Under the pieces are notes generated by a model. It was not told where the DNA came from. It searched no databases and saw nothing but the letters and a program-made list of their open reading frames with translations. Source: Acholoe squamosa (lineage: Eukaryota > Annelida > Polychaeta > Phyllodocida > Polynoidae). From it: DNA of 64,000 bases. Position 1 is the first letter of the stretch. The number at the start of each line of letters is the position of its first letter. A program made the position numbers and the translations under genes. Shown here piece by piece: positions 4,130 through 49,067 of the stretch. Location of the stretch: NCBI GenBank assembly GCA_949317995.1, contig OX439043.1:59599339-59663338 (forward strand), given 5' to 3'.

Positions 4130-4180
4130 ATGCATACCATTGGGGTAAGAGGAGGCAAGCTGAAGAGCCGTCACTATATG
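4130..4180 (+). CDS. gene A, small N-terminal exon (17 codons)
   Basis: ATG at 4130 opens a frame of 17 codons ending MHTIGVRGGKLKSRHYM at a donor GT (4181). It joins in phase 0 to the main exon at 5872. The last residues (KLKSRHYM) match KLSCRYM at the end of gene B exon 2, and the donor context gtatgtta is shared. An acceptor-like tttcag ends at 4124, in the same place as gene B's real acceptor. This exon is 8 nt longer than gene B's, so reading phase 0 from the acceptor hits a stop. Starting at the internal ATG restores the frame. The peptide is a short basic cytosolic tail. An upstream non-coding exon is possible. Confidence 0.6.
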
Positions 4181-4290
4181 GTATGTTATCTCCATTAGGC
4201 TTCATGAAGCCAGATCATATACATGTAGATTGCTGCATCCATAAACTGTGCTTAACTTTGCATATCAGCTAGTCATTTCTCAGACCCTTA

Positions 4291-4595
4291 GGGAGTGGTC
4301 ATTATTATCAACAGGGGGGTGGTGGGTTTTCACGCAGACGCGGGAGAATTTTTTACGCCCCCCTCGGCGGCAGTGTTTGCACGCCTCTGGCATGGAGAAT
4401 TTTCACACCCTCATTGATCTGTAGTAGCGCGCATGCTTTTTTGCTCTAAAAGGAGGGTAATCTTTTTTTAGCCCCCACTCAAGAGGAGTCAAAATTTTTT
4501 TAGCTTCCCCCCCTGGGAGGGGTCTGAATTCTTTCTGCCCCCCCCCTCAAACCCACCCCAGCCCCCCCCCCTGTTGATAAATAATGACCACTCCC
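4291..4595. mobile_element. 305-bp MITE, TTA duplication (Harbinger-like)
   Basis: The ends GGGAGTGGTCATTATTATCA and its inverse (...ATAATGACCACTCCC) are flanked by TTA at 4288-4290 and 4596-4598. A 3-bp TTA duplication with G-rich TIRs is typical of PIF/Harbinger elements. The interior is G/C homopolymer-rich. It lies inside the intron of gene A. A longer relative is at 18720-19546. Confidence 0.75.
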
Positions 4596-4599
4596 TTAA

Positions 4600-4910
4600 G
4601 GGCCGAGTAATTTATTGTCAGGTGGGGGGGGGGACTTGTTAGATATAGGAGGGGGTCATTTTGAAGAAAAAAATCTGTTGGTGGGAGGCCAAACCCAATA
4701 AACCTTCACACTGGGGTACGTGGGGGGTCAAAACTAATTTTGGACAATCCAAATACTCACGGTCATTTTGCAAATTCAGTTCTTAGTGGGGAGGGAGGCA
4801 CAATACTTTTCTTCATAGTGGTGTTGGGGGGGGGAGGGTCGGAATCAAATCTGCCGATTCAGTAAAATCCATCAACCCTCCCCCCAGCTGGCAATAAATG
4901 ACACGACCCC
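4600..4910. mobile_element. second MITE abutting the first, G-rich
   Basis: The left end (ggccgagtaatttattgtca) and the right end (gcaataaatgacacgacccc) are imperfect inverse copies. They enclose G-runs and C-runs. It starts immediately after the TTA of the neighbouring element, so one probably inserted beside the other. The exact boundaries and target duplication are unclear. Confidence 0.5.
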
Positions 4911-5327
4911 TATGTGTGGCCTACTCCTAGTACGATTTGGAGTGGCCATGGAGTTTCTTTGGAGTTTACACCACGATTTGGTGAGGGTCCACTCGTAGAA
5001 AATGACTTTCAGTGTAGGCAGAAACACAATGACAACTGGAGAAATTACTTACTGTGGTTGTATTATAACGTAGCTGTTTCAAGCAGTTGAATTATTATTT
5101 TGAATTTGAAATCAGATTCAATAAATGGAATTGAACTGTGAGTGGCATATAGAACAGTTGCATTTCTTCAGGGAAATGTATGGAACCAAGTAGGCACGCT
5201 ATCAGTTAAGATTTCGATCTAGAGCAGCTACTGTTTAGCATTGTCTGACTTTGAAATGTCTTTCTTTATGTAAATGGGCCTTCATCTGATTAATAAATGT
5301 AATATGCTATCATCATCAGTCCACTAG

Positions 5328-5688
5328 CAGAGGCGTAGGAAGCAAATCTTCATTGGGGGGGGGGCCCAGCGAGGGCCCCATCGCAGCGACCTAGAATTGT
5401 TGGCTCAAGCGAGACACCCCTCATACATATATGTACATGGAATTTGTTTAGAAAGGTAATTTCTAGTCAATTTTGCATCTGACTTTAGGCTCAGGCCCCC
5501 ATTTTTCCTATCCTATCACCATATCAATCTAATTTGAGATGCAAAGTTTTACCTTCTTTTCCATTTTGTTATGAGTTTGTAGCAAATTTTTTTTTGGGGG
5601 GGGGGCCCAGACATACTTGGGCCCCACCTCCTTTGTGATTGGGGGGGGGGCCCAGGCCCCCCTGCCCCCCCCTTTTCCTACGCCCCTG
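5328..5688. mobile_element. 361-bp MITE with CAGRGGCGTAGGAA ends
   Basis: The left end CAGAGGCGTAGGAA is the inverse of the right end TTCCTACGCCCCTG. ACTAG is found on both sides (5323-5327 and 5689-5693) as a probable 5-bp target duplication. Long G-runs with ggcccag are repeated three times inside. It lies in the intron of gene A, about 180 bp before the main exon. Confidence 0.7.
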
Positions 5689-5871
5689 ACTAGTTCTAAT
5701 AGTAATATACTGTTAAAGGCTCCTATTTCTATTGGTTAGTTAGATAAGTGGCAAATGCTGAAAAAGTTGGTTGGTAGTCCATGCGATGAGCAATTCTCAC
5801 AGTAGAATGCATTAAATTGATGTTGAATAGTATCAATTGTGATGTTACTTTCTTATTTCTCCTTTTTTCAG

Positions 5872-7443
5872 ATCATTTTCCTCTTTGGATTGTCAAGTAT
5901 TTCATTGATGGTCCTGATCCAGAACTGGCAAGGCTGCAAAAGTCGAGTTTTGTCTCTACCTTCAACAACCTGCTCTGACATCCATGTCAAGGGAGGTACA
6001 ACACAACCACCATTGAACATTAACAAAAACAGAACTAGCAACATTAGTCAAACTATTGGGATACTGAAAGCAGCACAACAGAAACATTCTGCTGCACAGG
6101 TCTTTTCCAATGTGCGCAAATCGCCAAACAATAGCACACATCAACCTCAACAGAAATCTTCTTCCAATATAAACCAAAAGGCCGCCACAATTCCCCGCAA
6201 CTCATATCAAATGCCAAATAAAACCAAGGCAAATATAAAGGTTGTGTTTGAAGCAAAAAGTAATGTTCTACCCAACTACCATCATGTATCTAAAGATGTT
6301 CTTCCTAATATTACTCTGATGGTTAGGGCAGCAGCCAGCCCACACTTCCTCACAAGATTCTACTGCATGTATTTCCGCACAGTCAGCATATTTTGGCCTT
6401 TCTCGTATGGCAGTATGGCACTGGTATTGGATGCTGAATCTACTGCTGACCATGCACTTGGTGACAAAGTCATTGAACAAATGCATAAATTCCGTCCTCA
6501 AGTTCCTGTTAGGGTTCACTACAAAAAACCACCAAAGCTGGCAATATTTTCCCCTGTAGGCAATGGGAGAGGACAGGGATACAATAGGCAACTATGGAGT
6601 ACATTCTTTGCAGATAAATATACTGACGACCCACTCATAGCCTATATGGATACAGATATACAAATTGTGACACCCATCACAAGAAACATTATGTTTCATG
6701 GAAACAAGCCCAAGGTCTTTGGAGAGGGGACAAAACTTGGATGGATAAGAGGATGGGAGAAAAGTACATTTGAAGCCATTGGGCTACCTATGGTATCCAA
6801 CTTCATGATAACATTTCCACAATTGATCTATAGAGACACTTACACAAAGTGCAGAAATTTCATTCTAAACAGATTGAAAACTGATGATTTTGAGGTTGCA
6901 TTTTCAAAATTCTTTCATGCTGGTTCAATAATAGCGCCAATTAATATAATCATGAGCTATGCCTGGTTCCACGAGTATGATCGATATGACTGGCATATAA
7001 AGACAAAGAATTTACTATTGAGCAATCACCCTCTACCACCACCAAATAAAATACGTCCTCGAGATATCATACCATCCATAGTAGGAGTTGCTCATATCAG
7101 TGACAAAAAGGCATTCAATTCAGACCTTATGATTCCTGGCTATTGTATGTCAGTTAAAGCCACTGGGAGATCAGTGCCAGGGTGTAGGGATATCACACAT
7201 AGTTTAGATTTGTTGTGTGATTACTGGGAGTCTTTCTTTCACTATCCTTGGCCAGCAGCTGACATATGGTGCAAGGCAGGCACCATGCACAAATGCTGTC
7301 ATGAGGCAATGGTGGAACACTACAAAGATGTTGCTGTATTAGCAAAAAATAATGTATTTACATTCAAAAAGGAAGATGTTTATCTAGTGGATAAATTTGC
7401 CAAAGAGATGAATGTCACTTGTCCTCGGGTATCTTTGCCATGA
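5872..7443 (+). CDS. gene A, main exon: type II membrane glycosyltransferase-like protein
   Basis: With exon 4130-4180 this gives about 540 residues. A membrane anchor (about residues 18-36, starting IIFLFGLSS) directly follows the splice junction. Next comes a low-complexity stem rich in Asn, Ser, Thr and Gln with several N-glycosylation sites. A conserved domain runs from about residue 163 to the end. It contains YMDTD (D277-T-D279), a DXD-type motif that in GT-A glycosyltransferases binds the metal and nucleotide sugar, and a Cys/His-rich segment WCKAGTMHKCCHEAMVEH near 483-500. The acceptor tttttcag ends at 5871; reading upstream to 5839 would cross it, so that start is rejected. Role inferred: a lumenal Golgi sugar transferase of unknown acceptor. 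Gene B is a close paralogue. I cannot name the family. Confidence 0.8.
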   Translation: MIFLFGLSSISLMVLIQNWQGCKSRVLSLPSTTCSDIHVKGGTTQPPLNINKNRTSNISQTIGILKAAQQKHSAAQVFSNVRKSPNNSTHQPQQKSSSNINQKAATIPRNSYQMPNKTKANIKVVFEAKSNVLPNYHHVSKDVLPNITLMVRAAASPHFLTRFYCMYFRTVSIFWPFSYGSMALVLDAESTADHALGDKVIEQMHKFRPQVPVRVHYKKPPKLAIFSPVGNGRGQGYNRQLWSTFFADKYTDDPLIAYMDTDIQIVTPITRNIMFHGNKPKVFGEGTKLGWIRGWEKSTFEAIGLPMVSNFMITFPQLIYRDTYTKCRNFILNRLKTDDFEVAFSKFFHAGSIIAPINIIMSYAWFHEYDRYDWHIKTKNLLLSNHPLPPPNKIRPRDIIPSIVGVAHISDKKAFNSDLMIPGYCMSVKATGRSVPGCRDITHSLDLLCDYWESFFHYPWPAADIWCKAGTMHKCCHEAMVEHYKDVAVLAKNNVFTFKKEDVYLVDKFAKEMNVTCPRVSLP

Positions 7444-7493
7444 TACCTCAAATGTCAATCCAGATTCACAGAAGATGTGCTCATTACTTCATA

Positions 7494-7942
7494 TGTGACC
7501 CATCCTTACAAAATGGTACGCACATCCAAAATGTTTAGTTATTGGCATATTCATTTACAGCTCATCAAGAGCTTTCATTTGGTATATAACACTTGCATAT
7601 TTAAACCAGGTGGTCCACTATGGATCTTCCATCGGTAAATTCAGTTCGATGAATTAAAAATCGATTAAACTGAGGTAATTGACATATTAAACATATGATA
7701 ATTTATGAATCCTATGTAATTCCTATGTAATTCTATATATCCAAGAACACTATGGCTATGTCTATCAGGCATTTGAAGCTTAAATTCCGTTTAGTAAGCA
7801 AGAATCCTGAAAAATATCTACCCATAGGTTAGAAAAATGCTAAAATATCAATTTAAAAAAATCTGATATTTTTAACACTATACCACTTGAGAAGCCTATA
7901 TCTAGGCTTCTAAATGTGCGACTTCAGTACCATTTTGTTAGG
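7494..7942. mobile_element. 449-bp MITE forming the 3' flank of gene A
   Basis: The TIRs TGTGACCCATCCTTACAAAA and the inverse of TGTGACCCATCCTAACAAAA are flanked by TA (7492-7493 and 7943-7944). It begins only 50 bp after the stop codon of gene A. ATTAAA strings inside (about 7654 and 7667) are the nearest poly(A)-signal-like sites for gene A. A second copy, split by an insertion, lies at 57968-58335 plus 59885-60119. Confidence 0.8.
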
Positions 7943-7944
7943 AT

Positions 7945-10110
7945 GGGTCACATATATGAATGTTATATATGAAGTTCTACATAGAACTTTCACCCAAAAC
8001 TTTCACCCTAATTATTGTTCTCTATTCTGTATAGAACAGCATAGGGAAGGCCATTCTCAGCAGTAGTGTGACAAAACTGGATCTCATTCTTCAGGATTGC
8101 GCTCCTCATCTAACTGCCCCTTATGACTGTTCATTACATAGATTATGAGTGTAGTTGTGGTGTGATTTCTTTTGCTGTTCCTCATCAGAGATCACATCAT
8201 AACTGTTGTGATCCACTTATGACTCATAGAATGCAAGTCACAAGTGGGTCACAAGTCATAAGTGATTCAAAAGTCACAAGTTATTGAGTCATAAGTCACA
8301 AGGTAATGATTAAGACTTGCCCACTCAAATTATAGATAATCAAAGTTCCACCACTGATTATGCTGTAGTTCACCCATTGTTACTTGTATAAATGTTCTCC
8401 TTGATTTATGTTTTGGTAAACTGGCACCACAAGGACTGATTCTACATGTATTCCTTTTGAAACAAAAGATGTGACCAGAAGTGGAAGAAACCTATTCCAT
8501 GCCCTTTAAAACATTACAAGCTAGAATTGAAAAATGAATAATGGTGGGCAAATATGGAACAGGATGAAAACCTTTAACTATGATAAAAAAAATATCCATA
8601 TCCTCACAAGCATCCAATAGTTGTGGGTCAAAAGTCATGAGTCACAACTTTTAATTCTGCCGGTAGGAAAAGTCATGTTCCGAGGCATGTATTTCAAGGT
8701 CTGATAATCATTGAGTTATTGCAGATTGAATGTTATTTCCCCATGTTCCTATCATCAGGGAATGATTGGTAATGTTAATTGATTTGATTTGAATGAGTTT
8801 TCCCAATATTATTCAGTTTTGAAAAGTTATTTCACCCTCAGGGTGTGCTCACAGCCTTTTGTGGTTTTTGGGGTTATAGGGGTTTGTGACTTGTGGCTCA
8901 CTAAAGTCACAAATTTTGAGGAACAAGTTTTGCAAAGTCACAGGAGTTGAGGAACAGGTTTTGGATCATAAAGAATCATTAGGAAATCATATCTCATGAG
9001 GAATGCAATCCAGGAGGTTAGACTGCATCACTCTTGACTCCATCTTATGCGATACAATATAACTTACTGCTCGTGAGGAAACTGGCCTTTTTGGGCAGAT
9101 TATCGTGAACCTCTGTCCATGTATTTTCCTGTGAACAGCCAAGCATAATGAGGTATAGTCATGGGTTGTGTTCAGTCTAAGTGAGTCCCCATTGGGGGTA
9201 CCACTTGGATATCTGGAAACTTGAGGATAGGGAAGATCCAATCATCCTTATTCATTGGCACTAGCTCTCTCTCCCTCTCACTACATAGTTGCGAGGATAC
9301 ATCATAAGTGAAAGCTGGCAATTATATTCGTATTACTGATTGTAACAATTGGACACCTCACTTGGGCACTCGGTTGCTGAATTTTTATGTGGACTTAAAT
9401 GACTTACCATCAGCCATGGATCCTGTTAATCATATTTCCTGGAGTCATAATGTTATTTTGGAAACATAGTGGAACTGTGGTTGAGAAATGATGTGGTGTT
9501 TAAAGCTGGAATTGCTGAATGATTACTGAAGCATTGGAGATTGAAAACTGAGAATTGGAGTCAATAAAACCCTTGGAGATGAATTACCCATTCGTGTCTT
9601 CTTTCCCAAATGGGCTGTGGGACCTAGACATGGCTGTGCCACTTGATGCTAGCTAAAGATTCCCCTAATCTAGTCATTTAAGCAGGAGTGGAGGTTTGAA
9701 AGAAGATTATTAATTTAATGGTGGAAATCCAGACTGGTAACTATCTTTGACGATTTTCCAGGACTCGACATTAGTACATAAAACCCTTCTTTCCCCTCTG
9801 CCTGTAATAGCCCAACAAGTGCAATCTTTTGGCCACCTAATGTTGTATTTTGTACCTATTACCACAACCACCTGTCGCCGCTCATGCTCAAACTCCCCAT
9901 TGGACTCTATATTATGTTTTAGTCGACTCTGACTCGACCACTAGATATTTTGGTACCTGCTTATATGGAGCACCCAAGACTTCTTTCAGCTGACATAGAT
10001 TTAGTATTTAATTGTACCTGATCAACTACAATAGCTAAACCTTGGAGTTGCCACATGCATTACTCGTAAATTGTTAATATAACCTATGATAGATGGGTGG
10101 TCGACATAAG
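7945..10110. other. intergenic, AP-1/CRE-like repeated strings
   Basis: No gene is seen. Around 8215-8305 the strings aagtcacaagt and cataagtcac recur many times with small changes, giving a degenerate array of TGACTT/AAGTCA half-sites. The frame at 8987-9241 (-) and other short frames show no recognisable protein character. Confidence 0.5.
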
Positions 10111-10111
10111 G

Positions 10112-10177
<66 letters not shown>
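10112..10177. repeat. (AT)n microsatellite
   Basis: About 66 bp of almost pure alternating A and T with a single interruption near the left end. An apparent frame of repeated Tyr-Ile on the minus strand is just this repeat. Confidence 0.95.
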
Positions 10178-10179
<2 letters not shown>

Positions 10180-10272
10180 CACGATTTCTGGCTTACTGGG
10201 TGCTTTTTGGTGGCTATTCCCATCCACATATCTGTCGATATTGCACACTCTGTAGGCTGTAACATCAATTTT

Positions 10273-10332
10273 GGATAACCTGTGCCCGGTGCGGGTTATC
10301 CATGGATAACCTGTGACCTGTCCAGGTTATCC
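10273..10332. repeat. two adjacent GGATAACC hairpins
   Basis: ggataacc (10273) pairs with ggttatcc (10294), and ggataacctg (10304) pairs with caggttatcc (10323). The four blocks alternate direct and inverted. The cluster sits just beyond the tail of the SINE-like copy at 10341-10456. Confidence 0.7.
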
Positions 10333-10340
10333 ATTCCCCT

Positions 10341-10456
10341 CCATGTGATATGTTACATGTTAAAACCCATGAAATATTCCAGGCCAGGGTAGGGATGGAA
10401 CCTGCAGTCTCACATCCCAAATCCAACTCCCTATGCACTGCGCCACAGGGACTGAC
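10341..10456 (-). mobile_element. tRNA-derived SINE copy
   Basis: On the minus strand the head reads ccctgtggcgcagtgcatag (A-box type) and later ggttccatccctacc (B-box type), the Pol III promoter of a tRNA. The tail contains gggttttaacatgtaacat. The plus-strand copy at 53740-53860 shares head and tail, so this is a dispersed family rather than a working tRNA. The family name is unknown to me. Confidence 0.7.
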
Positions 10457-10936
10457 GAGAGGTGGTTGGCTAGAACTAAACCAAACAAAGGAGGCCTAGT
10501 GTGTGTTAGCAAAGGCTAATAACACTCGGCCTACGGCCTAATGTCATTATCCTTCACTAACACACACTCGTCATGAATTATCCATTGGTTACTTGTTCAA
10601 TATACATGACACTGTACCAACATGCATAGTGGTTGAGTCAGGGCCGACTTACACTATGCATAAAGTGGAGAATTGCCGAGTATTGGCATTCTTATAAGAA
10701 TAATAATTCACCCTAACAGCATATCATTTTTTTAAAATTACATTGTCTATTTAGATAATAGATATTAGTGGCATCTGTCAAGATTTTCGTAGGTATGACA
10801 TTCACATGTGGCCATTATCATTTTTGGTTCCGAATGATCCCTAAATGTGCGTGTGTATGCTTATACATACATGTATATCATATTTACACATGCATAAACC
10901 TGGCAAATCTATTTAATAATTAGGAGCTTTTTATTG

Positions 10937-10941
<5 letters not shown>

Positions 10942-11014
<73 letters not shown>
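10942..11014. repeat. (TC)n microsatellite
   Basis: About 73 bp of CT dinucleotide repeat. It creates a spurious Ser/Leu repeat frame. Confidence 0.95.
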
Positions 11015-11016
<2 letters not shown>

Positions 11017-11107
11017 AGTCACCACAATTTGTCTCCTTTCTCTCTACGATTTCACACTTTCATTTTGCACATTCATTTCGACAATCAATTCTTGGCAGAT
11101 TCCCTCC

Positions 11108-11355
11108 TACCGTAGTACCTCGCATATGAGGTGCATCTTATACTCAAGGATAAATTCCTAATGAGCTTATCACTGAATTAGTCAAAGTTATGGGTGCGCA
11201 TTAGTATAGGCGATACAATAGAATAGTACTAGACAGCTCAAAATCAAGCTCAAGTAGACCTTATAGCGTCTCCTTCAACTCAGGGTGCACCTTATACGCG
11301 GAGCGCACCTAGGCCTATGCAAAGTATTACGGGATTTTACCCCGATTTTACCGTA
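11108..11355. mobile_element. diverged CCGTAATC-family element copy
   Basis: It starts near taccgtagtacctcgcatat and includes gggtgcaccttatacgcgga, the same motifs as in the 55973-57122 element. The right end is near ttttaccgtagtg. The ends are too diverged to fix boundaries. Confidence 0.45.
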
Positions 11356-12900
11356 GTGACTTTTACCAACCCCTGTGTCGCCAATACACCTCCCAGCACA
11401 CCTCCCGGGGCACACTTGCAGTGTCAAATGAGCTACAGGGTGGGGGGGGGGGCTATGTCAGGTTTGCTATAGCCTACCTATTACTTGTGAATATATAGCC
11501 CAGAGTATGGAATTGGTAAACTGGCGTCATCTCATGATATAAGGCATTGAACCCGGATAGCAAAACAGATATATTTATTGGTCCATATTTCAATTATAAC
11601 ATGTGTCTGAGTAACTGATGCATATCTAGGTGACTATTCAGGTTAATGCATGCGCATCTCATCATTCATCATGGTCTGTTGTGTTTGCCCATGTGTGGTC
11701 AGTATCTAGGTTAGTTCAACCATGAGCCAGACACATGAGTTTGACAATACACTGCGGGAAAAGGTGTTTAGATTTTGAACATGTTTAGCTCTGAACATGT
11801 TTAAAGTCTAAACATTTGTTGGATAAGATGAAATTAAACGATTTTGATGTAAACATCTAGATTTTTATGCTAAACGCGTTTGTGAATTTCCATTTTGCAA
11901 ACAAATATGTGGCGCGTTTTTCATAGCATGACAACCATACACATGATTTCAAGTGATAGTACATGAACATGTATGATGCTAAATGTTATATTTCTTAACG
12001 CTTTCAACATTCAAAAAAGGTACGTCTTTACAAATGTTCTTCTTCAAAGATTCTTTTGCCCAAACCCTATACAAATATAACATATATGTTTTTCTAGCCA
12101 AGTGGGCAGCCTCCACCACTCAGGGACTGCCATGCGATGGCCTCAGAACGCCCTCTAGAGCAAACTGGGCCTATTATGTGTGATCATAGAGTATATATAT
12201 ATATAGAATAGAGTCTAAGCTAAAATCCGTCTGTATACTACAAGGGTCTTAATGGCCATTTTCACACCCCTACATCTGAGAAATATACACCAGGACTGTC
12301 AGTTTTATTGCCCTGACACCCACTGGGCCAGAGAGCCTTTGAAGACCATGTTACCACCAGAAATTAGACATATTAAGGGCCACTTTCTGAGAACCCCCAT
12401 CAGACCCCATGGCCTACTTGAAAGAGTAGAAAACAGACAGGAAACTTTCACTTCTATCTCAGAGTTTGATGTGTGAAGTTGACATTCATTGAAGTCTGTC
12501 TGCAGATTGTTAAAAAAAAACAAGGTTCCCAAACATATGCACTTCTTCATGATAACTTCAAGGACACAGGTGCAGCAAGCATACAAACTTGATAAGTACA
12601 AATTGATAAGATGCCTTTATACTTTATTTGCACTTCATTGGTATAAGTCTCAACTGTACCCCTTTCAGACTAAGTGATAGGCTTTATCATTTACTTTGGG
12701 TTGGATTTTTAGTCATAGCGGTACTTTTGGTGCAATATGTTTATTTTATTTTTTGAAATAATTTTCTTTGTGCTCCATGGACATGTTACTGAACTGTCCC
12801 TCAAAATGCAGTCACACAACTATATGTATGTGGGTCCCTTCACCATCTCTTTGTAAATGAATATATCCCCTCATTAAATATGCATCTACAGCCCCATCCA
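11356..12900. other. intergenic, no gene seen
   Basis: A G-run lies near 11442-11451 and a short AT run near 12191. Short frames at 11983-12183, 12252-12476 and 12305-12601 have no protein-like features that I can defend. Confidence 0.5.
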
Positions 12901-12907
12901 GGCCTGG

Positions 12908-12943
12908 AGGAGCTGCTCAGCCCCCCTCTGGTGAGCAGCTCCT
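12908..12943. promoter_or_regulatory. 12-bp perfect inverted repeat upstream of gene B
   Basis: aggagctgctca (12908-12919) and tgagcagctcct (12932-12943) are exact inverse copies with a 12-nt loop. It lies about 165 bp before the TATA box of gene B. It could be a cis-regulatory palindrome; this is inference from position only. Confidence 0.4.
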
Positions 12944-13105
12944 TTACAACTTGGGGGCACTTTTCCCCTGCTGTGACATTTACTGACCATGTCTAAACGA
13001 AAATAAGCTGGTCCCAGATACCCCCATAGGTGCCCCCTTGTTATCCCTCCCCTCTCTGAAGTCCTCCTTTGTGTGATTCATGGTTCATCTACCCTAGCCT
13101 GTGAG

Positions 13106-13116
13106 TATATAAAAGG
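13106..13116 (+). promoter_or_regulatory. TATA box of gene B
   Basis: TATATAAAAGG lies 40-50 bp before the ATG at 13156, so transcription would start near 13135-13140 and give a 5' leader of about 20 nt. It is the best-formed core promoter next to a supported gene in this window. Confidence 0.75.
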
Positions 13117-13155
13117 GCTGTGGGGGACTTGGCAAGTGCTATATATCAACCAAAC

Positions 13156-13176
13156 ATGGGATCCGCCAATACAGAG
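13156..13176 (+). CDS. gene B, exon 1 (7 codons)
   Basis: ATG GGA TCC GCC AAT ACA GAG (MGSANTE) ends at a donor gtagga. It is in phase 0 with exon 2. It lies just downstream of a TATA box and no other in-frame ATG precedes it. Together with exon 2 it makes the cytosolic tail. Confidence 0.75.
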
Positions 13177-13368
13177 GTAGGATTTTCAATTATCATTACA
13201 TCGTAGCTACAGATCTACCGGGGTTGTTCATGCAATATCACTTGAGTTAGGTTTTTAAACTTTCACACACCTTGACAATGGTTGTGTTACCAGGTGTTTA
13301 TCTTAAATTTTGAAATTGGGGAACTTGTACTTTTCCCCTATCAATGTGTAGGATTTATTATATTTCAG

Positions 13369-13416
13369 AAGAGATGGACTCAGCGTGCATTTATCAAGTT
13401 GAGCTGCCGCTATATG
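13369..13416 (+). CDS. gene B, exon 2 (16 codons)
   Basis: The acceptor tatttcag ends at 13368 and the donor gtatgtta starts at 13417. The frame reads KRWTQRAFIKLSCRYM, basic, as expected for the cytosolic side of a type II anchor. It is in phase 0 at both ends. It is homologous to the gene A exon at 4130-4180, including both splice contexts. Confidence 0.8.
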
Positions 13417-13917
13417 GTATGTTACCTTATATGCCTTGACCTTTTTAGCATGAAGATATAAATGAGTGTCAAAAGATGGTGAAATGACCTGTGCATTAAG
13501 CAATGTTATCTCCTAACCCATCTTTAAGCTGCGTGGAGAGTTCAATAAGGAATCAAGCAGCGAGTAGTATATGGAAAAGTTACACTTCTCAAGGCAATGT
13601 GATGCAATATATAACATTTTGTCGAATAATATTTATGTAGGGCCTACAATATAATCCAGAAGAGACTAACCTTTGGATGAGTGATATATATACACATACA
13701 TCTGTACCGTCAATGTAATGCATTATTATTAGTACACTTGAACACTTTTTTCGAATAAGTTCCCCATTCTATCCTCTGATTGATTGTATAAATTGTAAAT
13801 GAAACAATGACGGTTGATACCCCTGTGAATATCATTGAATATCATTAAGGTTAAATTCACAAAGCCAGTATCGGGTATCACGGCATATCAATTACAATAT
13901 ATTTTCCCCTATTTCAG

Positions 13918-15453
13918 ATCATTTTCCTCTTTGGAGTGTTGATTATTTGGCAAATGACCTTGCACTGGCCAGGCTTGAAATATGGAGAGATGGGAGACAT
14001 CAAAGACAATACATTACAACCCCCAGCGGATATAGAGATGACCGCCATTAACACCAATACCAATAATAATGTAGGAATACACAAAACACCAAAAGTCCCA
14101 CGTATTGCAGCAAATGTTCTCACAAATACACATCAATCAGTCGCCAAAGTACCTCAAATAACACGGAAATCTATTTCCAATATACGCCAAATAACTTTGC
14201 AGGTTCTTCCCAATACACCTCAGATGCCAAATAAAACCATACATAAACAGTCTGTACTTACAACCAACACCGTTTCTTCCATTATGAATCAAGCGCCTAT
14301 CAAAGCTTTTCAAAATATAACCCTCATGGTTAGGACAGGTGGTAATCAAGAACTCCTCACCAGATTCTACTGCATGTATTTCCGCACAGTCATCATATTT
14401 TGGCCCTTTTCCTATGGCAGTATGGCACTAGTGTTGGATGCTGAATCTACTTCTGACCATATATTTGGAGACAAATTCATAATGCAAATGCAAAGGCTCC
14501 ATCCACAAGTTCCTGTGAAAGTTTACTATGAAGAACTACCAAAGACCAAGGGAATTTTGTCTTATAGTAAGAATTTCAGAACAGAGACTTACAATAGACA
14601 ATTATGGAGTACATTCTTTGCAGATAAATATACTAATGAACCAGTCATATCATATATGGATACAGATACACAGATAGTGACACCACTGACAAGAAAAATT
14701 ATGTTTAATGGAAATAAACCCAAAGTTTTTGGAGAGGGGACAAAGCATGGATGGGTATTAGGATGGGAGAAAAGTACATTAGAAGCCATCGGCCTACCTA
14801 TGGTATCCAACTTCATGGTAACATTTCCACAATTAATCTATAGGCACACCTTCACCAACTGCAGAAACTTCATATTAAAAAGATTTGAAACTGATGATTT
14901 TGAACTTGCATTTTCAAATTTTTTCCATACTAACTCACAGATATCTCCAATTAATATAATTATGTCCTATGCCTGGTTTCATGAATATGATCAATATGAC
15001 TGGCACATAAAGACAAAGAATTTGACATTGAGCAATGCCCCCCTGCCACCAACAAAGAAGATACAGCTTAAAGATGTCCTACCATCCATAATAGGAGTTG
15101 CTCACAACAGTCACAGAAAGGCGTTTCATCCAGAACAAATGATTCCTGGTTACTGTATGTCTGTTAAAGCCATTGGGAGATCAGTGCCTGGGTGTAGAAA
15201 TATAAGACATAACCTAAACATGTTGTGCGATTACCAGCAGTCCTTCTTTCACTATCCATGGCCGGCAGCTGACAAATGGTGCAAGGCAGGCACCATGCAC
15301 AAATGCTGTCATGAGGCAATGGTGGAACACTACAAAGATGTTGCTGCATTAGCAAAAAATAATGTATTTACATTCAAAAAGATAGATGTATATCTAGTTG
15401 ATAAATTCGCTGAAGAGATGAATGTAACTTGTCCCCATGTATTTTTGCCATGA
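13918..15453 (+). CDS. gene B, main exon: type II membrane glycosyltransferase-like protein
   Basis: With exons 13156-13176 and 13369-13416 this gives 534 residues. The membrane anchor (about 24-40, starting IIFLFGVLIIW) follows the splice junction. The stem contains degenerate repeats of about 14-16 residues with Asn-Thr and Ile-Xaa-Gln. The conserved domain starts near residue 156. It has the DTD motif at 271-273 and the Cys/His segment at about 477-494, and ends in NVTCPHVFLP. It is very similar to gene A throughout the domain and poorly similar in the stem. An ATG exists at 13936, but the upstream splice pattern and the intact anchor favour the spliced start. Likely role: a lumenal sugar transferase of the secretory pathway, inferred from topology and DXD motif. 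The family is not recognised. Confidence 0.85.
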   Translation: MIFLFGVLIIWQMTLHWPGLKYGEMGDIKDNTLQPPADIEMTAINTNTNNNVGIHKTPKVPRIAANVLTNTHQSVAKVPQITRKSISNIRQITLQVLPNTPQMPNKTIHKQSVLTTNTVSSIMNQAPIKAFQNITLMVRTGGNQELLTRFYCMYFRTVIIFWPFSYGSMALVLDAESTSDHIFGDKFIMQMQRLHPQVPVKVYYEELPKTKGILSYSKNFRTETYNRQLWSTFFADKYTNEPVISYMDTDTQIVTPLTRKIMFNGNKPKVFGEGTKHGWVLGWEKSTLEAIGLPMVSNFMVTFPQLIYRHTFTNCRNFILKRFETDDFELAFSNFFHTNSQISPINIIMSYAWFHEYDQYDWHIKTKNLTLSNAPLPPTKKIQLKDVLPSIIGVAHNSHRKAFHPEQMIPGYCMSVKAIGRSVPGCRNIRHNLNMLCDYQQSFFHYPWPAADKWCKAGTMHKCCHEAMVEHYKDVAALAKNNVFTFKKIDVYLVDKFAEEMNVTCPHVFLP

Positions 15454-17064: not shown

Positions 17065-17236
17065 TTCCTTTGCTGTCTTGAATCTAACTATTACAGAGTT
17101 TCTTTTAAAAACACAAACAAATTGACATCCAGTCATATTTTTACCAATCGTTCCTTTAGTGATCCGTCAATTTCCAAAATCAACATGACACAGCCCATTG
17201 GGCACACCTGACTTTGATCAATGTTGATATAACATA

Positions 17237-17848
17237 TGTGAGCCAGCAAGCAGAAATGGGGGTTCCTGCGGGATTTAGTACCTGTTTTAGCCACCAGGGG
17301 GCACCACTATGGGCTAGAATAGGAAAAATATGCCTAAAACTGCTATAGGCTACTTTTTTATGGAGAATTCAAAGATTTTTGATAAAACGTTCTATTTTTT
17401 GGGGAAAAGGTTCCAAATTTGGCATTAAAAAGAATGTTTTTGGGCCAAAATAGGCATTTTTGTTGATTTCTGTTGCCATGGAAACATGATATTCATTCTG
17501 ATTAAGAAAATTGATGATCCTATTTGAAGTACGTTTCACAAGGTCCACTATGGTGAAAACGGAATGAAAATATCATCTCTAGATCAAAAGTTATGGGCAA
17601 AAGAATGAAAATTTATGCTCATTTAGCTAATTAGCATAAATTATGCTAATTGTAGTTGTATCTCATGACCATGGAGACGTAGGGCTTATTGACATTCACG
17701 AAATGGTCATACCTACCCCTATTTAGCAAGCTATTCCTCCAAAACTAACAGGAGTATCTTCTCATGTAATATATCACTGTAAAGCTAGTGATCTGAATTT
17801 TAAAGTTGACTATTAGCACGGAGCACCCTTTCTCCTTGCCTCTAGACA
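17237..17848. mobile_element. 612-bp repeat element, copy 1
   Basis: Almost identical to 21044-21656. The ends tgtgagccagcaagcagaaa and the inverse of tttctccttgcctctagaca form a degenerate TIR. TA flanks both sides (17235-17236 and 17849-17850). The interior holds ttagctaattagcataaatt. There is no coding capacity. The high identity of the two copies implies recent activity. Confidence 0.75.
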
Positions 17849-18719
17849 TATATATGAAGTTTGGCAATCAGTATTTTGCAAGGTTAAAATGTGGTTGAAT
17901 TTGAATGTTAACACAACATAATCAAATGATCCAGGATTCATCACCTACATATCAATGTCGTCTGCTACATCTGGTGGTCCATAGTATTCTATCATTTCAA
18001 TGCTGTGTAGTTGTTATGTTGACATACATATCAATACTGACATTGAAATTAACAGTGTTGATTTTAATGTAACAGTGTTGATTCAAATGTAAGAAATCCA
18101 ATTCATAAACAGTGTTTAATTAAGAACAATATTTCAACATTGCTAGATCTGCTGATGTGTGTTGAAATAGGTCATAGTTGACAAATTTGAAACGGCAATG
18201 TTGGATCACCGTTAATAACAGGTTGATCTACATTGTCAACATTGATTCAATATTCTATGTCCACTGGGTATAATGACCAAAAGGGTACAGATATATATGT
18301 GCAATGGCAGTAATCGAAAAGTCTTCAGTGAGTAAGGAAGAATGAGTAACGAATAGGGAGTCGAGCACGTTAGCACTACTTCTGCCCTGAAAAGGATAAT
18401 TGATCACCTTTTCTTTTGGCCAGAACCCTCCTCTAGCCCGTCACCAACTGGTCGTACAAAATCCAAACCACGATACCTTCCTTTCTCCCCTTCCTCAGAT
18501 CATTCTGTCGTACGCGCATTCATTTGTTTCCCCCCATATCTCTCCCTTAATCCTTCTTTAACATTACTCCCGCCTATAACTTCCTCCCTCCATCTCTTCC
18601 CCCACTCCCTCGTTTCTTTATCTTTAGCCTTTATCCACTATTCCCTGCTATTCTCCTACCTTCAAATTATTGCGTCCTTGTCCCCGTACAGAATGCACTG
18701 TACAAGTTAGGGAGTGGTC

Positions 18720-20091: not shown

Positions 20092-20806
20092 CTACTCACT
20101 GATTTCTGAAGTGGTTTCACTCACTCACTGATTTGTGCAGTGACTTAGCTCACTCGCTTATTTGTGCAGTGGCTTCCTTCACTCACTGATTTCTGCAGCT
20201 TGCTTCACTTGCTGATTTCTGCAGTGGCTTCACTCAATCACTGATATTTGCAATGGCATCATTCACTCACTGATTTCTGCAATGGCTTCAGCCACTGATT
20301 TCTACAGTGGCATCATTCACATGCTTATGTCTGAAGTGGCTCCATTCAGCTGCTGATGTCTGGCGTGACTTCCCCACTTGGTGATTTTTGCAGTGGCTTC
20401 ACTCATTCACTGATTTCTTTTTGCGATGGTTTGATTCACCTACTGATTTGTGCAGTGGCTTCACTCACTGATTTGTGCAGTGGCTTCACTCACTGATTTG
20501 TGCAGTGGCTTCACTCACTTGCTGGTTTGTGCATTGGCTTCACCCACCTGCTGATTTGTGCAGTGGCTTCGCACACTTGCAGATTCTTGCAGTGGCTTCA
20601 CTTACTCACTGATTTCTGAAGTAGCTTCGTTTACCTGCTGATGTCTGCAGTGGCTCCATTCAGCTGCTGATGTCTGCAGTGGCTTCACAAACATTAACTG
20701 ATTTCTGCAGTGGCTTCAGTCACTCTCTGAAAATTACAGTGGCTTCAGCAGTGGCTTCGCTCACTTGCTGATTTTGACAGTGGCTTCAGTAACTCACAGA
20801 TGTATC
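20092..20806. repeat. minisatellite, left part (cagtggcttcactcactgat units)
   Basis: Degenerate tandem units of about 23-35 bp built on cagtggcttcactcactgat fill about 715 bp. The array resumes at 22923 with the same units and the same higher-order order, so it was continuous before the element at 20809-22920 inserted. Confidence 0.9.
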
Positions 20807-20808
20807 TA

Positions 20809-22920
20809 TAGGTCCCATCACCAAGAATAGGTAAAAAGTTTAAAAGTTCCCCCGTTTGTTTCAAGTAATCATTGATTATTTCGCAGCTCCTCCACATACA
20901 GCAGCAGGGTCGGATCCAGGATTTTGAAAAGGGGGGTGCACCCCTCATTTAGCCCCAAACGTTGGCTAAATTCTAGGGTAAAAATAGTTATGTAAACTTT
21001 TAAGTACAGGGAAAAATCCGCCACTGCAGCAGCAATTTAAAATTGTGAGCCAGCAAGCAGAAATGGGGGTTCCTGCGGGATTTAGTACCTGTTTTAGCCA
21101 CCAGGGGGCACCACTATGGGCTAGAATAGGAAAAATATGCCTAAAACTGCTATAGGCTACTTTTTTATGGAGAATTCAAAGATTTTTGATAAAAGGTTCT
21201 ATTTTTTGGGGAAAAGGTTCCAAATTTGGCATTAAAAAGAATGTTTTTGGGCCAAAATAGGCATTTTTGTTGATTTCTGTTGCCATGGAAACATGATATT
21301 CATTCTAATTAGGAAAATTGATGATCCTATTTGAAGGTACGTTTCACAAGGTCCACTATGGTGAAAACGGAATGAAAATATCATCTCTAGATCAAAAGTT
21401 ATGGGCAAAAGAATGAAAATTTATGCTCATTTAGCTAATTAGCATAAATTATGCTAATTGTAGTTGTATCTCCTGACCATGGAGACGTAGGGCTTATTGA
21501 CATTCACTAAATGGTCATACCTACCCATATTTAGCAAGCTATTCCTCCAAAACTAACAGGAGTATCTTCTCATGTAATATATCACTGTAAAGCTAGTGAT
21601 CTGAATTTTAAAGTTGACTATTAGCACGGAGCACCCTTTCTCCTTGCCTCTAGACAAATATCAACTTAACGCTTAGATAATGGGCTTTCTGACTGTGCCC
21701 TGTAGTCATGTTTTGAGAATCATGCTACTGGTTGCCATGGAAACCATGCCCAAACTTTGCCGAAATCTTCAATTTTTCCCTACCTTTTATCACTCTAAGT
21801 CCCAATGCGGAAAAGCTATTATGACCATTTGCAAGGCAAGTGGACAGAAGTTGAAGAACTACATTCTGCTTTTTTTGAGCCCAATTTGATAGCTTTAGCA
21901 TCTCTACTTCTGAAGATTTGGCTCTTTGAAGAGGCTGCCGAAATGTGTGAAATTGGAAGTTTTCCATAGGGAACCCGAGACCTCGCATTGTGAAAGATTT
22001 GTGTTGGATATGTGTGAGCTGTAAGATTTAGGAAGTATTGCAAAAGAGTCCCTATATAAAACCATCGATATTCCAGATGTGTGGGTGGGAGGTGAGCGGG
22101 AAAGGGTCCAGGAGAGCTAGACTGCACCCTAGGGTGGGCCCTGAGTGTGGTTTGAACATTGGGAACCAATCCATTGAATGTGCCTACACGGTAGTGATTC
22201 GATTCCTAAGCAGCATAGGCATACAAGTGAATTTTAGACCTAGCTGATAATGAATTTTACCAGCATCTTTGCCCCACTACAGACTCTCTCTTAGTATCAA
22301 TAGAATTCAAAAGGAAGCATTATCAAGCCATCAGAAAACTATAACAGCTTTTTTTCCCTTTTGTTAAGTCTATATCTGAAACCGCACAGAATTTTCTTAT
22401 GAAACTTGGTATACTGAAAGTACACATCTTTTGCTTTGCCTTGACATCTTAGTCGTGGATTCTGATTGAAAACTTCATATTACAGAATTATTCTTGTAAA
22501 AGATCTTTATTGTTTGGCAGCTTATTCTGATGTTCATGACCCTACAAGTCAATCTGAAATGCATCTTACAGCTTAGTAACTTGGTTGAAGTGAAAGCCAC
22601 TGGAATTCTGCACACATGCAAATCAGAAGAGAACCCGCGGTTTGGCAGCCGCAACAATAGAACAAGTGTGATTGCCAGACCTACAAAAGCGGGAGATTTG
22701 GGACTGTCGGGGTCAAAATGACCCCTATTTTTCAGGGCCCCAACTTGTCATAAAATGAAGATTTTTGCCCAAATACCCATTGCACATGCTTTGAAATGAA
22801 GTTCAGGCATGCTACCATATGGGCAGAATTGGAAAAAACTGGGGTAGAGACACCCATCCTAGTTATTTCCTTGACTGAACACACATGTTGGTGTTTACCC
22901 ATACTTGGTGATGGGACCTA
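20809..22920. mobile_element. 2.1-kb TIR element inserted in the minisatellite
   Basis: The TIR TAGGTCCCATCACCAAG begins at 20809 and its inverse CTTGGTGATGGGACCTA ends at 22920. Arms extend about 28 bp with few mismatches. TA stands on both sides (20807-20808 and 22921-22922), and the interrupted minisatellite on either side marks the empty site. The interior carries the 613-bp element (21044-21656) but no transposase-like frame, so it is non-autonomous. Short frames inside (21680-21889, 22038-22247 and others) are not convincing. Confidence 0.85.
21044..21656. mobile_element. 613-bp repeat element, copy 2 (nested)
   Basis: A near-identical direct copy of 17237-17848 lying inside the 2.1-kb TIR element. 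A TA duplication is not clear here (at/aa flanks). It shows three levels of nesting: minisatellite, TIR element, this repeat. Confidence 0.8.
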
Positions 22921-31989: not shown

Positions 31990-32338
31990 TGTGGCGGTAA
32001 GACCGAGGGAGCACGGAGCCGAGTTGGAACCATCCTAGATGGGGCCGGCGGAGCTCCGGGCGCCTGGAGTCCGAGCCAAGGGACGGAGCGTCCAACGCTG
32101 GGTATGTGATACCAGTGTCGGAAGCTGCGGCGGCTATAAAAGCGCGTGTGCGTGTAGTTTCGGGGGAGACGGTTTCCCGGTAGAAAGCAAGGCGGACACA
32201 CAGCAGAGAAATAACACGACAGAACCTCCGATCCGGAGTTAGATGGTGTGGCCAGGTGCCAGGGTTTAATAAACTGTTAACTTGTATGTTCCGAGTTGTG
32301 TTGTGTTTACAGGAAGGGTGAATCGGATTATCGCTACA
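31990..32338 (+). repeat. 5' LTR
   Basis: Starts TG and ends CA. It contains a TATA box TATAAAAG at 32135-32142 and an AATAAA at 32268-32273, as expected for an LTR promoter and poly(A) signal. Confidence 0.9.
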
Positions 32339-32377
32339 TTGGTGACAGCTAGTGACGAACCCCGCTTCAACGTAAAC

Positions 32378-33388
32378 ATGGACGGATCGGATGACACCAA
32401 GGAAGCCGTGAAGATGGAAACCGCAGGAAAGGCGAGCTTGCTGGAAGTGGTAGACGAGGAAATCACCCTACGACGAGAGGGTCCCCCGCGGCGAGAGACG
32501 GGACCGGAGAGGCAGGAGGAGGGACGTGACAGGCCGATTCCAAGATGGCCGTGGGAGATGGGATCGGAGACGGTTGAGAACGGGCAGGAGAGGAAACCCC
32601 GCTGGAGGGTGGCGGGAAAGGATCCTAGACCAGATTCTGGCCCGAGAGAGGAGCTGTGGTGGACGGAGGAAGATTGGGCAGAGGCTGCAAGGAGAGAACA
32701 GCGGGGAGAGGCGGTTCAGCGGGGGCCGAACCCGGAGCGCCAGGGCAGGGCCCGAACTGAAGCTGGTACCGGGCGGTCCTGCTTGCCTCTGGAAGGGGAG
32801 CCAGGGAGCCGGGTTGTGGTAGTACCGGACTGTAAACTGAAACCAGGAGGAGACCAGCCCCGAGTCGTCTGTCCGCCACCAGTACAGAGGATACCACGGG
32901 AGGAGTTAGCGAGGGCGAGAAGGGCGAAGAAAATGTTCTGGGTTCCGGAATATGACGGCCCGACGACGCTGCGGGCATACGCGGAGATGCTGGGAATGAA
33001 CCCGGACCTTACTCCAGACCTGGTGGTGGTCCCGGGAGGAGGGATGGGCACCGAGATACGGCAGCTGCTGGAGGGACAGTTTGAGGTCGTACAGACATAT
33101 CGCACCCGGTTCGGGGAGCCAGTGGGATCGGCTCCGGGGAAGTTCTGCCATGAGTGTGGGAGTCGGCGGCAGCTGCTAGAGCCGAGCAACCCGGAGCAGT
33201 CGCCAGCACAGTCGGAGGGAGGCGAGCGTGGGGAGGACGAGGAGCCCGGAACCAGCGGAGAGGGACAGGGTAAGTGTGATTCTATTCATCCTGTTCCTAG
33301 TGACGGGTCGAATCCCGTTAAGCCCCGAGTACACGGCGGCAGAGGGCGGGGAAGGAAACGAAGGACGAGGGCAACCCACCCCGAGTAG
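32378..33388 (+). CDS. gag-position ORF of the LTR element (336 residues)
   Basis: ATG at 32378 (context aaacATGg) begins 40 bp after the 5' LTR; the longer upward reading at 32282 runs into the LTR and is not used. The product is rich in Glu, Arg, Gly and Pro, with an RRAKKMFWVPEYDG-like charged segment and one CHECG near residue 270. There is no full CCHC zinc knuckle. By position it should be the Gag-like structural protein, but I see no recognisable capsid domain. The frame is intact, fitting a young element or selection on it. Confidence 0.6.
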   Translation: MDGSDDTKEAVKMETAGKASLLEVVDEEITLRREGPPRRETGPERQEEGRDRPIPRWPWEMGSETVENGQERKPRWRVAGKDPRPDSGPREELWWTEEDWAEAARREQRGEAVQRGPNPERQGRARTEAGTGRSCLPLEGEPGSRVVVVPDCKLKPGGDQPRVVCPPPVQRIPREELARARRAKKMFWVPEYDGPTTLRAYAEMLGMNPDLTPDLVVVPGGGMGTEIRQLLEGQFEVVQTYRTRFGEPVGSAPGKFCHECGSRRQLLEPSNPEQSPAQSEGGERGEDEEPGTSGEGQGKCDSIHPVPSDGSNPVKPRVHGGRGRGRKRRTRATHPE

Positions 33389-33685
33389 ACGGGGCGGAGA
33401 GGCAAGGGTCCGGAAGCAGTAGAGTACTGGGGTGGCTGTTACCAAGGACGGAGAGGTCGAAAGCAGTGGCTCATCGGGTGCTTCATGTTTGGTACTTGCA
33501 GGATGGAAGCGATGAGGGTGGCAGCGGCAGCAGGGTCGGAGGCAGACAAGGGCCGCAGCTGTCGCGGGCGGACGGCGGAGGGAGCCGTGTGTACATAAGT
33601 TACGTGGAGCTAGGGACGCCGGGCCAGGCGGACGCAGTAGGGAGCGTCAGGAGGTCGGAGACGGTATCCCGGGGCCAGTTCCAGT

Positions 33686-34440
33686 TATCTCCGGGTTCCA
33701 GTTGACGTGCCTTTGGGGAAAGGCAGCAGCTATTCATCGGGGCGACCGGAGCGCCCAGAGGCGGAGTCCTCACCAAGTTATCTCCGGGTTCCAGTTTGAC
33801 GTGCCTTCGGGGAAAGGCAGCAGCTATTCATCGGGGTGATCGGAGCGCCCAGAGGCGGAGTCCTCACCAAGTTATCTCTGGGTTCCAGTTGACGTGCCTT
33901 CGGGGAAAGGCAGCAGCTATTCATCGGGGCGATCGGAGCGCCCAGAGGCGGAGTCCTCACCAAGTTACCTCCGGGTTCCAGTTTGACGTGCCTTCGGGGA
34001 AAGGCAGCAGCTATTCATCGGGGCGATCGGAGCGCCCAGAGGCGGAGTCCTCACCAAGTTATCTCTGGGTTCCAGTTGACGTGCCTTCGGGGAAAGGCAG
34101 CAACTATTCATCGGGGCGATCGGAGCGCCCAGAGGCGGAGTCCTCACCAAGTTACCTCCAGGTTCCAGTTTGACGTGCCTTCGGGGAAAGGCAGCAGCTA
34201 TTCATCGGGGCGATCGAAGCGCCCAGAGGCGGAGTCCTCACCAAGTTATCTCCGGGTTCCAGTTGACGTGCCTTCGGGGAAAGGCAGCAGCTATTGATCG
34301 GAGCGCCCAGAGGCGGAGTCCTCACCAAGTTACCTCCGGGTTCCAGTTTGACGTGCCTGCGGGGAAAGGCAGCAGCTATTCATCAGGGCGATCGGAGCTC
34401 CCGGAGGCCCGGAGTCTCCTCACCGAGTCACCTCCGGGGT
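33686..34440 (+). repeat. about eight tandem 93-bp units inside the LTR element
   Basis: Each unit contains ccgggttccagttgacgtgc, aaggcagcagctattcatcg and cagaggcggagtcctcacca. Units alternate between agttgacg and agtttgacg, so a two-unit (186-187 bp) period is visible. One unit near 34290 lacks the tcggggcga part. The repeated frames on both strands come from this array. Confidence 0.9.
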
Positions 34441-34605
34441 TCAAGGAGAAGAAACGAGGCCAAGACGGAGGAAGTTGTTATTATTTATTCAGCGCCCAGG
34501 GGATCCTGCGCTTGTAAATATGTTATGTAGAAGTTAGCTACCCTCATAAGGGTTTTTTTTGTTGTTTTGCACTTCACCCCGTAGTGTTATATTAGTAGGG
34601 GAGAG

Positions 34606-34954
34606 TGTGGCGGTAAGACCGAGGGAGCACGGAGCCGAGTTGGAACCATCCTAGATGGGGCCGGCGGAGCTCCGGGCGCCTGGAGTCTGAGCCAAGGGAC
34701 GGAGCGTCCGACGCTGGATATGTGATACCAGCGTCGGAAGCTGCGGCGGCTATAAAAGCGCGTGTGCATGTAGTTTCGGGGGAGACGGTTTCCCGGTAGA
34801 AAGCAAGGCGGACACACAGCAGAGAAATAACACGACAGAACCTCCGATCCGGAGTTAGATGGTGTGGCCAGGTGCCAGGGTTTAATAAACTGTTAACTTG
34901 TATGTTCCGAGTTGTGTTGTGTTTACAGGAAGGGCGAATCGGATTATCGCTACA
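34606..34954 (+). repeat. 3' LTR
   Basis: 349 bp, differing from the 5' LTR at six positions, with its TATA box at 34751-34758. It is preceded by the purine tract. Confidence 0.9.
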
Positions 34955-46860: not shown

Positions 46861-47030
46861 GTAGGAACTCTGTGTCTGCGTTGCTTGGTACTCCTAGGTA
46901 CAACATGATCCTGGACTCTAAATGTAAACTAAGATGAGATTACAAATAAGTTCAAGAATGGGACGGTACCATGAATGGGACAAAGAACCTGGCTAACCTT
47001 GTTCTCATCAGGCCTGTAAAATCACATCAG

Positions 47031-47766
47031 GAGCTTAATTCAAAACATCCTGGGATCACGACCCCAGTGATCTTAGGAATAAATCAGCCTTATCCTATTA
47101 AGCGATCTTAAGAGTTGACTGGGTTCACATACCCTAGCCAGCATCGATCTTAGCCTCAGCCCTCCTACACTATTCCAAGAAGAACTGACTAGGCACAGGG
47201 CTAAGAGTCCCAAAATAAAGGAATAGCTGTGGAGTCACTCTTCTTCACAAGAGTGCTTATACCATCGTTCCCCGTCCCCATATGGGCTAACAAAAGAGCA
47301 CAGGGTGCAGTTGACCCCCGTACAGTAATCAAGAGTTGTTCCCATGAATGTATGATTTATGCTTGCCTATTAGAAGCATTGTGCCCTCCCCCCAGGACAA
47401 AGAGAGAGAAGGGAAGAATTACCTTACAGTGCACTTAACGCATGAGTAGCCCTAAGAGAGCCCTCAAGGACACTCAGCAAATGTCCTCCCTCCCCTCTTT
47501 ATGTATGCAGCAGGCTATTCACTCTTTTGATCAGGAGTGTTTCCTGTAAGCGCTCTTGTACTCAGGTGAAACCACTATGCATTTCTTTCACTAAGATCGC
47601 AGTGATCTTAGTGGTGGAAATGGAATAGTGAAGTGATCCCAGGACTATCTATTCTGGACAGGCCTGCAACCACTGCATTACATAGGGTAGATCAGCCAGG
47701 TCTTATGATATGTGCCTACACTAAGATCGCTGGGGTTGGGATCCCAGGATGTTTTGAATTAAGCTC
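47031..47766. mobile_element. 736-bp TIR element, copy 1, CAG target duplication
   Basis: The ends GAGCTTAATTCAAAACATCC and its inverse pair over about 40 bp. CAG lies on both sides (47028-47030 and 47767-47769). The interior repeats the palindromic theme aagatcgc/gcgatctt several times (for example near 47592-47611), giving subterminal repeats. A 69-codon frame at 47229-47438 recurs in copy 2 with similar length, but the sequence does not look like a transposase. Confidence 0.85.
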
Positions 47767-48896: not shown

Positions 48897-49067
48897 CTGG
48901 TGATCTCAAGATCCAACTGAGGTCATCTGATCATAGAAAGCCAATTTCAAATGTGAGCTAGAACAAAATTCATGCGCAATGTATATATACAGTGTCTGCG
49001 TAATAGTACTTTTAAAGGTTATGCTAAATGAAGATTCATTGCCTAATTTAATTCAATGCATATGGAT

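Follow-up and report, generated by a model that had tools for sequence, protein, structure and literature searches.

Two neighbouring paralogues as probable Golgi glycosyltransferases of a dispersed multicopy family

What kind of protein is made by two neighbouring genes that look like glycosyltransferases (GTs) and match no named family? The question is raised by a 64-kb stretch of contig C9 (bases 59599339-59663338, hereafter "the window") in a genome of 1,481,437,319 bases and 63 contigs. Two same-strand paralogues, here called gene A and gene B, are found in it; no third copy was detected by tblastn in the 64-kb window. The original prediction, made from the sequence alone, read both as type II membrane proteins with a DXD motif and proposed that they might be Golgi enzymes of GT-A fold. 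Our analysis makes it highly probable that genes A and B encode Golgi type II GT-A glycosyltransferases, members of a family of at least 21 copies that is unnamed in the libraries searched.

Both gene models display a Golgi type II layout, with a short basic tail, a single N-terminal anchor, a stem and a domain, as indicated by hydropathy and tail composition. The type II orientation is inferred from the basic tails. Five N-glycosylation sequons are present in the stem of gene A, and one in that of gene B.

Family members and predicted fold

When the genome was searched with the protein sequence of the domain, at least 33 matches were obtained at E ≤ 0.001. In 21 of the 33 the frame is stop-free over at least 356 aa and coverage is nearly full: 20 of the 21 span from residue 4 or earlier to residue 378 or later, and a copy on contig C1 spans residues 18-354. 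The remaining 12 are fragments or carry stop codons. Queries with two distant members recovered the same 21 plus fragments (39 and 35 rows, respectively, at E ≤ 10). All family counts are lower bounds.

A structural model of the domain was obtained with AlphaFold2 from an alignment of 21 rows, with a pLDDT of 91.4 and a pTM of 0.92. The original prediction had proposed a comparison of the predicted structure with GT-A folds as a check. In each of two structure comparisons, all 50 of the 50 PDB rows listed had a Rossmann-like GT-A fold, and no confident match to a fold other than that of a glycosyltransferase turned up. A GT-A fold is therefore predicted with confidence, and the model supports the assignment made at the outset.

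Residues D118 and D120 of the DXD motif are invariant in 21/21 members, and the residue between them is T in 19, A in one and S in one. Chance occurrence of the motif was rejected on account of this invariance among 21 paralogues. The motif comes directly after strand 113-117; in GT-A enzymes, DXD is located after such a core strand. H266, also invariant, ends strand 264-266, and the invariant K271 comes next in the alignment. Among the elements of the conserved GT-A core, PMC7185993 counts DxD and xED, the glycine of the G-loop and, in addition, a C-terminal His; the Asp of xED is described there as variable in retaining families. At the presumed xED place (start of helix 214-225, in an assumed register), position 216 holds N, C, I, A or S. 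E226 is invariant and could serve as the xED acidic base. Because no conserved acidic residue opens helix 214-225, a retaining mechanism is weakly suggested, as a guess. The equivalences proposed for DXD, H266 and xED are topological and drawn from the model, and topology was likewise the basis for judging whether the DTD lies in a nucleotide-sugar site, the second condition set by the original prediction.

Conservation of the putative active site also bears on a different reading, namely that the family has a GT-A fold and is catalytically dead, serving as lectin, chaperone or scaffold. Activity is a prediction from the model, and the stems of the paralogues change nearly freely. However, DXD and His266 are kept in 21/21 members, and the first Asp of DXD is missing from L025, a fragment copy that carries a stop codon. 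We consider a dead enzyme very improbable.

For the active glycosyltransferases that we favour, we infer residence in the Golgi, disulfide bonds, binding of metal and of donor, and activity, which may be combined as follows. The products of genes A and B would be type II membrane proteins that enter the secretory pathway and most likely reside in the Golgi. Each would have a short basic cytoplasmic tail, one anchor, a variable stem with sequons and a luminal GT-A domain. Disulfides between conserved cysteines would probably stabilise the luminal domain. The phosphates of a nucleotide sugar would be bound by the DXD motif (D118, D120) together with a divalent metal, whose site would be completed by His266 at the end of its strand. 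A glycoprotein or a glycolipid would then receive the sugar.

Relationship to known glycosyltransferases

The statement that no recognised family accounts for these genes agrees with searches of Pfam, NCBIfam, PHROGs and PDB sequences, in which weak scattered matches only were seen. Pfam listed no family for genes A and B at E ≤ 10. For the 21 members, no GT model was listed at the same threshold, at which the filters drop most matches above ~0.1; the only matches were PilI (one member, 0.0071), IFT52_central (two, 0.059) and EHMT1-2_CRR (one, 1.8), which are mutually unrelated and were taken as chance. NCBIfam gave none or scattered weak matches (best 0.18) and PHROGs scattered weak matches (best 0.067), also taken as chance. 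Gene A alone gave one row among PDB sequences (streptavidin, E 1.7, taken as chance), and profiles of 2, 8 and 21 rows gave no match. Scans for relatives confirmed none of 42 and of 72 stretches in viral contigs and none of 211 in bacterial and archaeal genome contigs, with no match in plasmids and best E-values of 6 and 9, taken as chance, in phages; such scans depend on short exact peptide patterns or on similarity at the level of BLAST, and relatives ~15% identical would escape them. No published description of the family was found by word searches, which cannot find a sequence and are hence no proof.

Structural comparison places several enzyme families near this one. The highest VIA Z scores were 13.6 for GNPTAB (234 aligned) and 12.8 for CpsY, compared with 12.0 for Kre2 and 11.1 for LgtC, rows whose Z differs by less than 1 being tied. 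The catalytic core of GNPTAB is described as a Rossmann-like GT-A fold (PMC11418123), and the order of the scores raises the possibility that genes A and B encode sugar-1-phosphate transferases like GNPTAB or bacterial Stealth proteins, which would use a GT-A pocket to pass a sugar-phosphate instead of a sugar. GNPTAB and CpsY do come ahead of Kre2 and LgtC; however, differences below 1 are ties, and Kre2 (242-250) and LgtC (246) align over a similar length. Furthermore, no Stealth model or conserved region was listed by Pfam at E ≤ 10 among the 21 members. The motif given for GNPTAB in PMC11418123 is NDD, in contrast with the DTD of this family, whose first Asp is invariant, and this family has a single N-terminal anchor and one short domain. 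A sugar-phosphate transferase is, in our opinion, hardly to be expected here.

LgtC, LARGE1, XXYLT1 and WaaO, which we take to be GT8 enzymes (family labels are assumed except where the structure title states them), share 11-14% identity with this family as GT8 structures. Yeast Kre2/Mnt1 and Ktr4, presumably GT15 enzymes of type II topology, share 7-10%, and no Pfam GT15 model was listed at E ≤ 10 among the 21 members. The lowest Foldseek E-value seen does not belong to a solved structure: it belongs to a predicted protein (BFVD Q4A256) of a marine algal virus, Emiliania huxleyi virus 86 (EhV-86), with E 1.7e-8 and TMq 0.52, followed by phage protein A0A6J5LUI8 with 2.5e-8 and TMt 0.56. All of these are predicted structures, and the E-values of the two libraries are not strictly comparable. 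Both proteins share 12-15% identity with this family, and Q4A256 is a 646-aa protein with an annotated methyltransferase domain.

Several observations weigh against the identification of genes A and B as glycosyltransferases. When the same domain was modelled by AlphaFold2 from a 2-row alignment, pLDDT was only 27.6, and confidence required the 21 rows. The Foldseek TM-scores are low (query-normalised, 0.23-0.39) and the structural matches share 6-16% identity, so that no nearest family can be picked. At the level of sequence, nothing ties the genes to a GT family: hhalign against a GT8 profile of 85 sequences, mostly enterobacterial and WaaO-like, gave Prob 1.3% and a score of 23.2, which was exceeded by 2/60 column shuffles, in a comparison of low power (Neff 2.8). 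The best local GT8 alignment pairs DTD with the DAD of GT8, without significance. Lastly, a predicted fold does not prove activity.

The same searches bear on the possibility that genes A and B belong, as strongly diverged members, to one of the known GT-A families of CAZy (GT8, GT15, GT24 or other), an alternative that concerns classification and not mechanism. We regard it as unlikely, though clearly less so than the two readings discussed above. Against it stand the lack of Pfam GT models among the 21 members (within the filter limit given above), the failure of the GT8 profile match to rise above shuffles, and the behaviour of PF01501 (Glyco_transf_8), which matched 0/21 members at E ≤ 10 and hit one place over the whole genome, on C1, that is none of the 21 loci.

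A separate new family, set apart by Pfam-level searches, is likely but unproved. It would be a variation on a known kind of enzyme and not a new kind of enzyme, its members being very probably Golgi GT-A glycosyltransferases. A broader proposal, to which we give slightly less than an even chance, is that this is a GT family outside CAZy and Pfam, of GT-A fold and perhaps retaining, whose annelid copies, at least 21, have different stems and acceptor specificities and jointly write glycans that no known enzyme explains. That invertebrates should have orphan families of glycosyltransferases is expected. As domain libraries miss a family of 21 copies, genome surveys of carbohydrate-modifying families would overlook it; a family of such size, missed by Pfam, merits the attention of enzymologists. 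Its 21 members are candidates for orphan linkages, and the confident model can be used for tests of donor and metal binding. Annelid glycans are reported as unusual, phosphorylcholine-bearing glycolipids being an example given in PMC6994554, and an annelid genome paper mentions over-represented carbohydrate-modifying families, including an uncharacterised Glyco_transf_92 group (PMC12403961).

Gene structure, copies and divergence

On the + strand, the stop-to-stop frame of gene A occupies 5827-7443 (538 codons) and that of gene B 13855-15453 (532 codons); the spliced models encode 540 and 534 aa, respectively. The CAG acceptors end at 5871 in gene A and 13917 in gene B, and a hydrophobic anchor (IIFLFG...) opens at the first codon 3' of each (5872 and 13918); the start of the last exon and that of the anchor coincide in both genes, as had been noticed in the original prediction. 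The remaining features are listed in Table 1. In gene B, an earlier first exon (13156-13176) is likely, and together with the exon at 13369-13416 it would encode MGSANTEKRWTQRAFIKLSCRYM. The acceptor-to-donor stretch is 56 bases long in gene A versus 48 in gene B, which puts the two genes out of phase there and makes the start of gene A less certain.

Table 1. Position in the window of the features proposed for genes A and B
Feature	Position	Strand	Basis or remark
Gene A putative exon 1, coding (MHTIGVRGGKLKSRHYM)	4130..4180	+	Encodes a basic tail on the cytoplasmic side; splice donor GTATG at 4181; splice signals and reading frame
Gene A last exon: anchor, stem, GT-A domain, stop	5872..7443	+	Open frame, acceptor
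Gene A membrane anchor, begins exactly at exon boundary	5872..5928	+	Hydropathy, acceptor
Gene A variable stem	5929..6306	+	Shares 33/113 aligned residues with gene B; dN 0.77
Gene A predicted GT-A-fold domain	6307..7440	+	AlphaFold2 model (pLDDT 91.4, pTM 0.92); fold searches
Gene A DTD (DXD) motif	6649..6657	+	Both Asp invariant, 21/21 members
Gene A invariant His266, candidate metal-binding C-His	7093..7095	+	Strand end; topological equivalence only
Gene A tract identical to gene B 15276-15346, 71 nt	7266..7336	+	Probable gene conversion
Gene B TATA-like element TATATAAAAG	13106-13115		5' of proposed first exon
Gene B putative exon 1, coding (MGSANTE)	13156..13176	+	3' of TATA-like element
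Gene B putative exon 2 (KRWTQRAFIKLSCRYM)	13369..13416	+	Encodes a basic tail on the cytoplasmic side; splice signals
Gene B last exon: anchor, stem, GT-A domain, stop	13918..15453	+	Open frame, acceptor
Gene B membrane anchor, begins exactly at exon boundary	13918..13974	+	Hydropathy, acceptor
Gene B variable stem	13975..14313	+	Comparison with gene A
Gene B predicted GT-A-fold domain	14314..15450	+	76% identical to gene A domain; row in alignment behind AlphaFold2 model
Gene B DTD (DXD) motif	14659..14667	+	Family alignment

The boundary between acceptor and anchor is a trait of the family. A phase-0, pyrimidine-rich YAG acceptor lies directly before the hydrophobic anchor in 19/21 members, a frequency that argues against chance; the exceptions are L017 (no site above the pyrimidine threshold) and L019 (frame without this part). 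Retention of the acceptor in 19/21 copies favours duplication at the DNA level over reverse transcription, and retrocopies were rejected for this reason. Except in L019, the frame begins with a hydrophobic stretch (20/21 members, 19-residue mean 1.58-2.91, in windows that may take in a few codons before the acceptor).

The notion of a "local" gene family was not supported, as the 21 copies are spread over 11 contigs (C1, C3, C6, C7, C8, C9, C10, C14, C15, C17 and C18) of 53.9 to 127.1 Mb each. Close pairs are found in the window (8 kb), on C17 (12.5 kb) and on C6 (38.5 kb). In a tree whose root serves for drawing only, genes A and B are sisters with a support of 100/100. Fragment or stop-carrying relatives, several of them mutually close, were detected at C14:15239022-15275386, C10:70281931-70295779, C10:79571811-79572655 and C15:9219135-9220397; it is as if the family were gaining and losing copies.

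Genes A and B are 63% identical overall and 76% identical in the domain. In the domain, 289/378 aligned residues are identical (dN 0.137, dS 0.506, NG86), compared with 33/113 in the stem (dN 0.77, dS 0.97, NG86, in an uncertain alignment). Judging from these rates, the domain is under purifying selection and the stem is close to neutral, in agreement with the contrast between stem and domain described in the original prediction. The stem had also been called rich in Asn, Thr and Gln: its variability was confirmed, and its richness is mild only (N 11-12%, T 7-13%, Q 8%).

A C-terminal Cys/His segment had been singled out as conserved. It is indeed near-identical in the pair, and it is covered by a 71-nt identical run (7266-7336 in gene A, 15276-15346 in gene B), around which 113/117 bases agree. 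As a run of that length arose in 3/5000 codon-pair shuffles, gene conversion fits, and is the probable reason why WCKAGTMHKCCHEAMVEH is almost identical in genes A and B. Gene conversion would imply that the identity of the segment in the pair tells less about function than was assumed. Among the 21 members, C325, C333, C334, H341 and Y342 are the only invariant residues of WCKAGTMHKCCHEAMVEH. A zinc motif in this stretch was considered and rejected because most of its letters vary within the family.

Organism group and other features

The original prediction hinted at an echinoderm, hemichordate or amphioxus as the source of the DNA. The mitochondrial contig (C63, 15,641 bases) points instead to an annelid. 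Its genes lie on one strand in the order cox1-cox2-cox3-nad6-cob-atp6-nad5-nad4L-nad4-gap-nad1-nad3-nad2, which we take to be the classic annelid order. Matches to mitochondrial respiratory or ATP-synthase families were obtained for 12/12 scanned frames at E ≤ 0.001; the weak points are nad6, which scores 20.7 bits against a curated cut-off of 33.2, and nad2, for which the general Proton_antipo_M was the only match. AAA is read as Lys in cox1 NHKDIG and nad4 LLLKLGGYG, presumably conserved motifs, and ATA as Met in cox1, which corresponds to invertebrate code 5. Code and gene order led to rejection of an echinoderm origin and give no support to a hemichordate or amphioxus either. Scale worms that have 18 chromosomes have been published (PMC10288160 and PMC10541532). 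Between nad4 and nad1 of the mitochondrial contig lies a simple repeat about 440 bases long, of TAYATA type as read from translations (L027, ~4417-4860). Thirteen further contigs whose lengths were obtained, C19-C24 and C57-C63, measure 12 to 289 kb each.

Other features of the window are repeats. Direct repeats of 349 bases, 98% identical (31990-32338 and 34606-34954), flank a G+C-rich stretch with a 371-codon open frame (32273-33385), for which Pfam gave no confident match, and a tandem array of 94-base units (33683-34438); the region 31990-34954 resembles a mobile element of recent origin. A second pair of direct repeats, 628 bases long and 98% identical (17227-17853 and 21035-21661), encloses a degenerate 29-base tandem array (20094-20730). 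Finally, a direct repeat of ~757 bases is found at 47024-47771 and 48145-48901, with copies 94% identical and ~370 bases apart.

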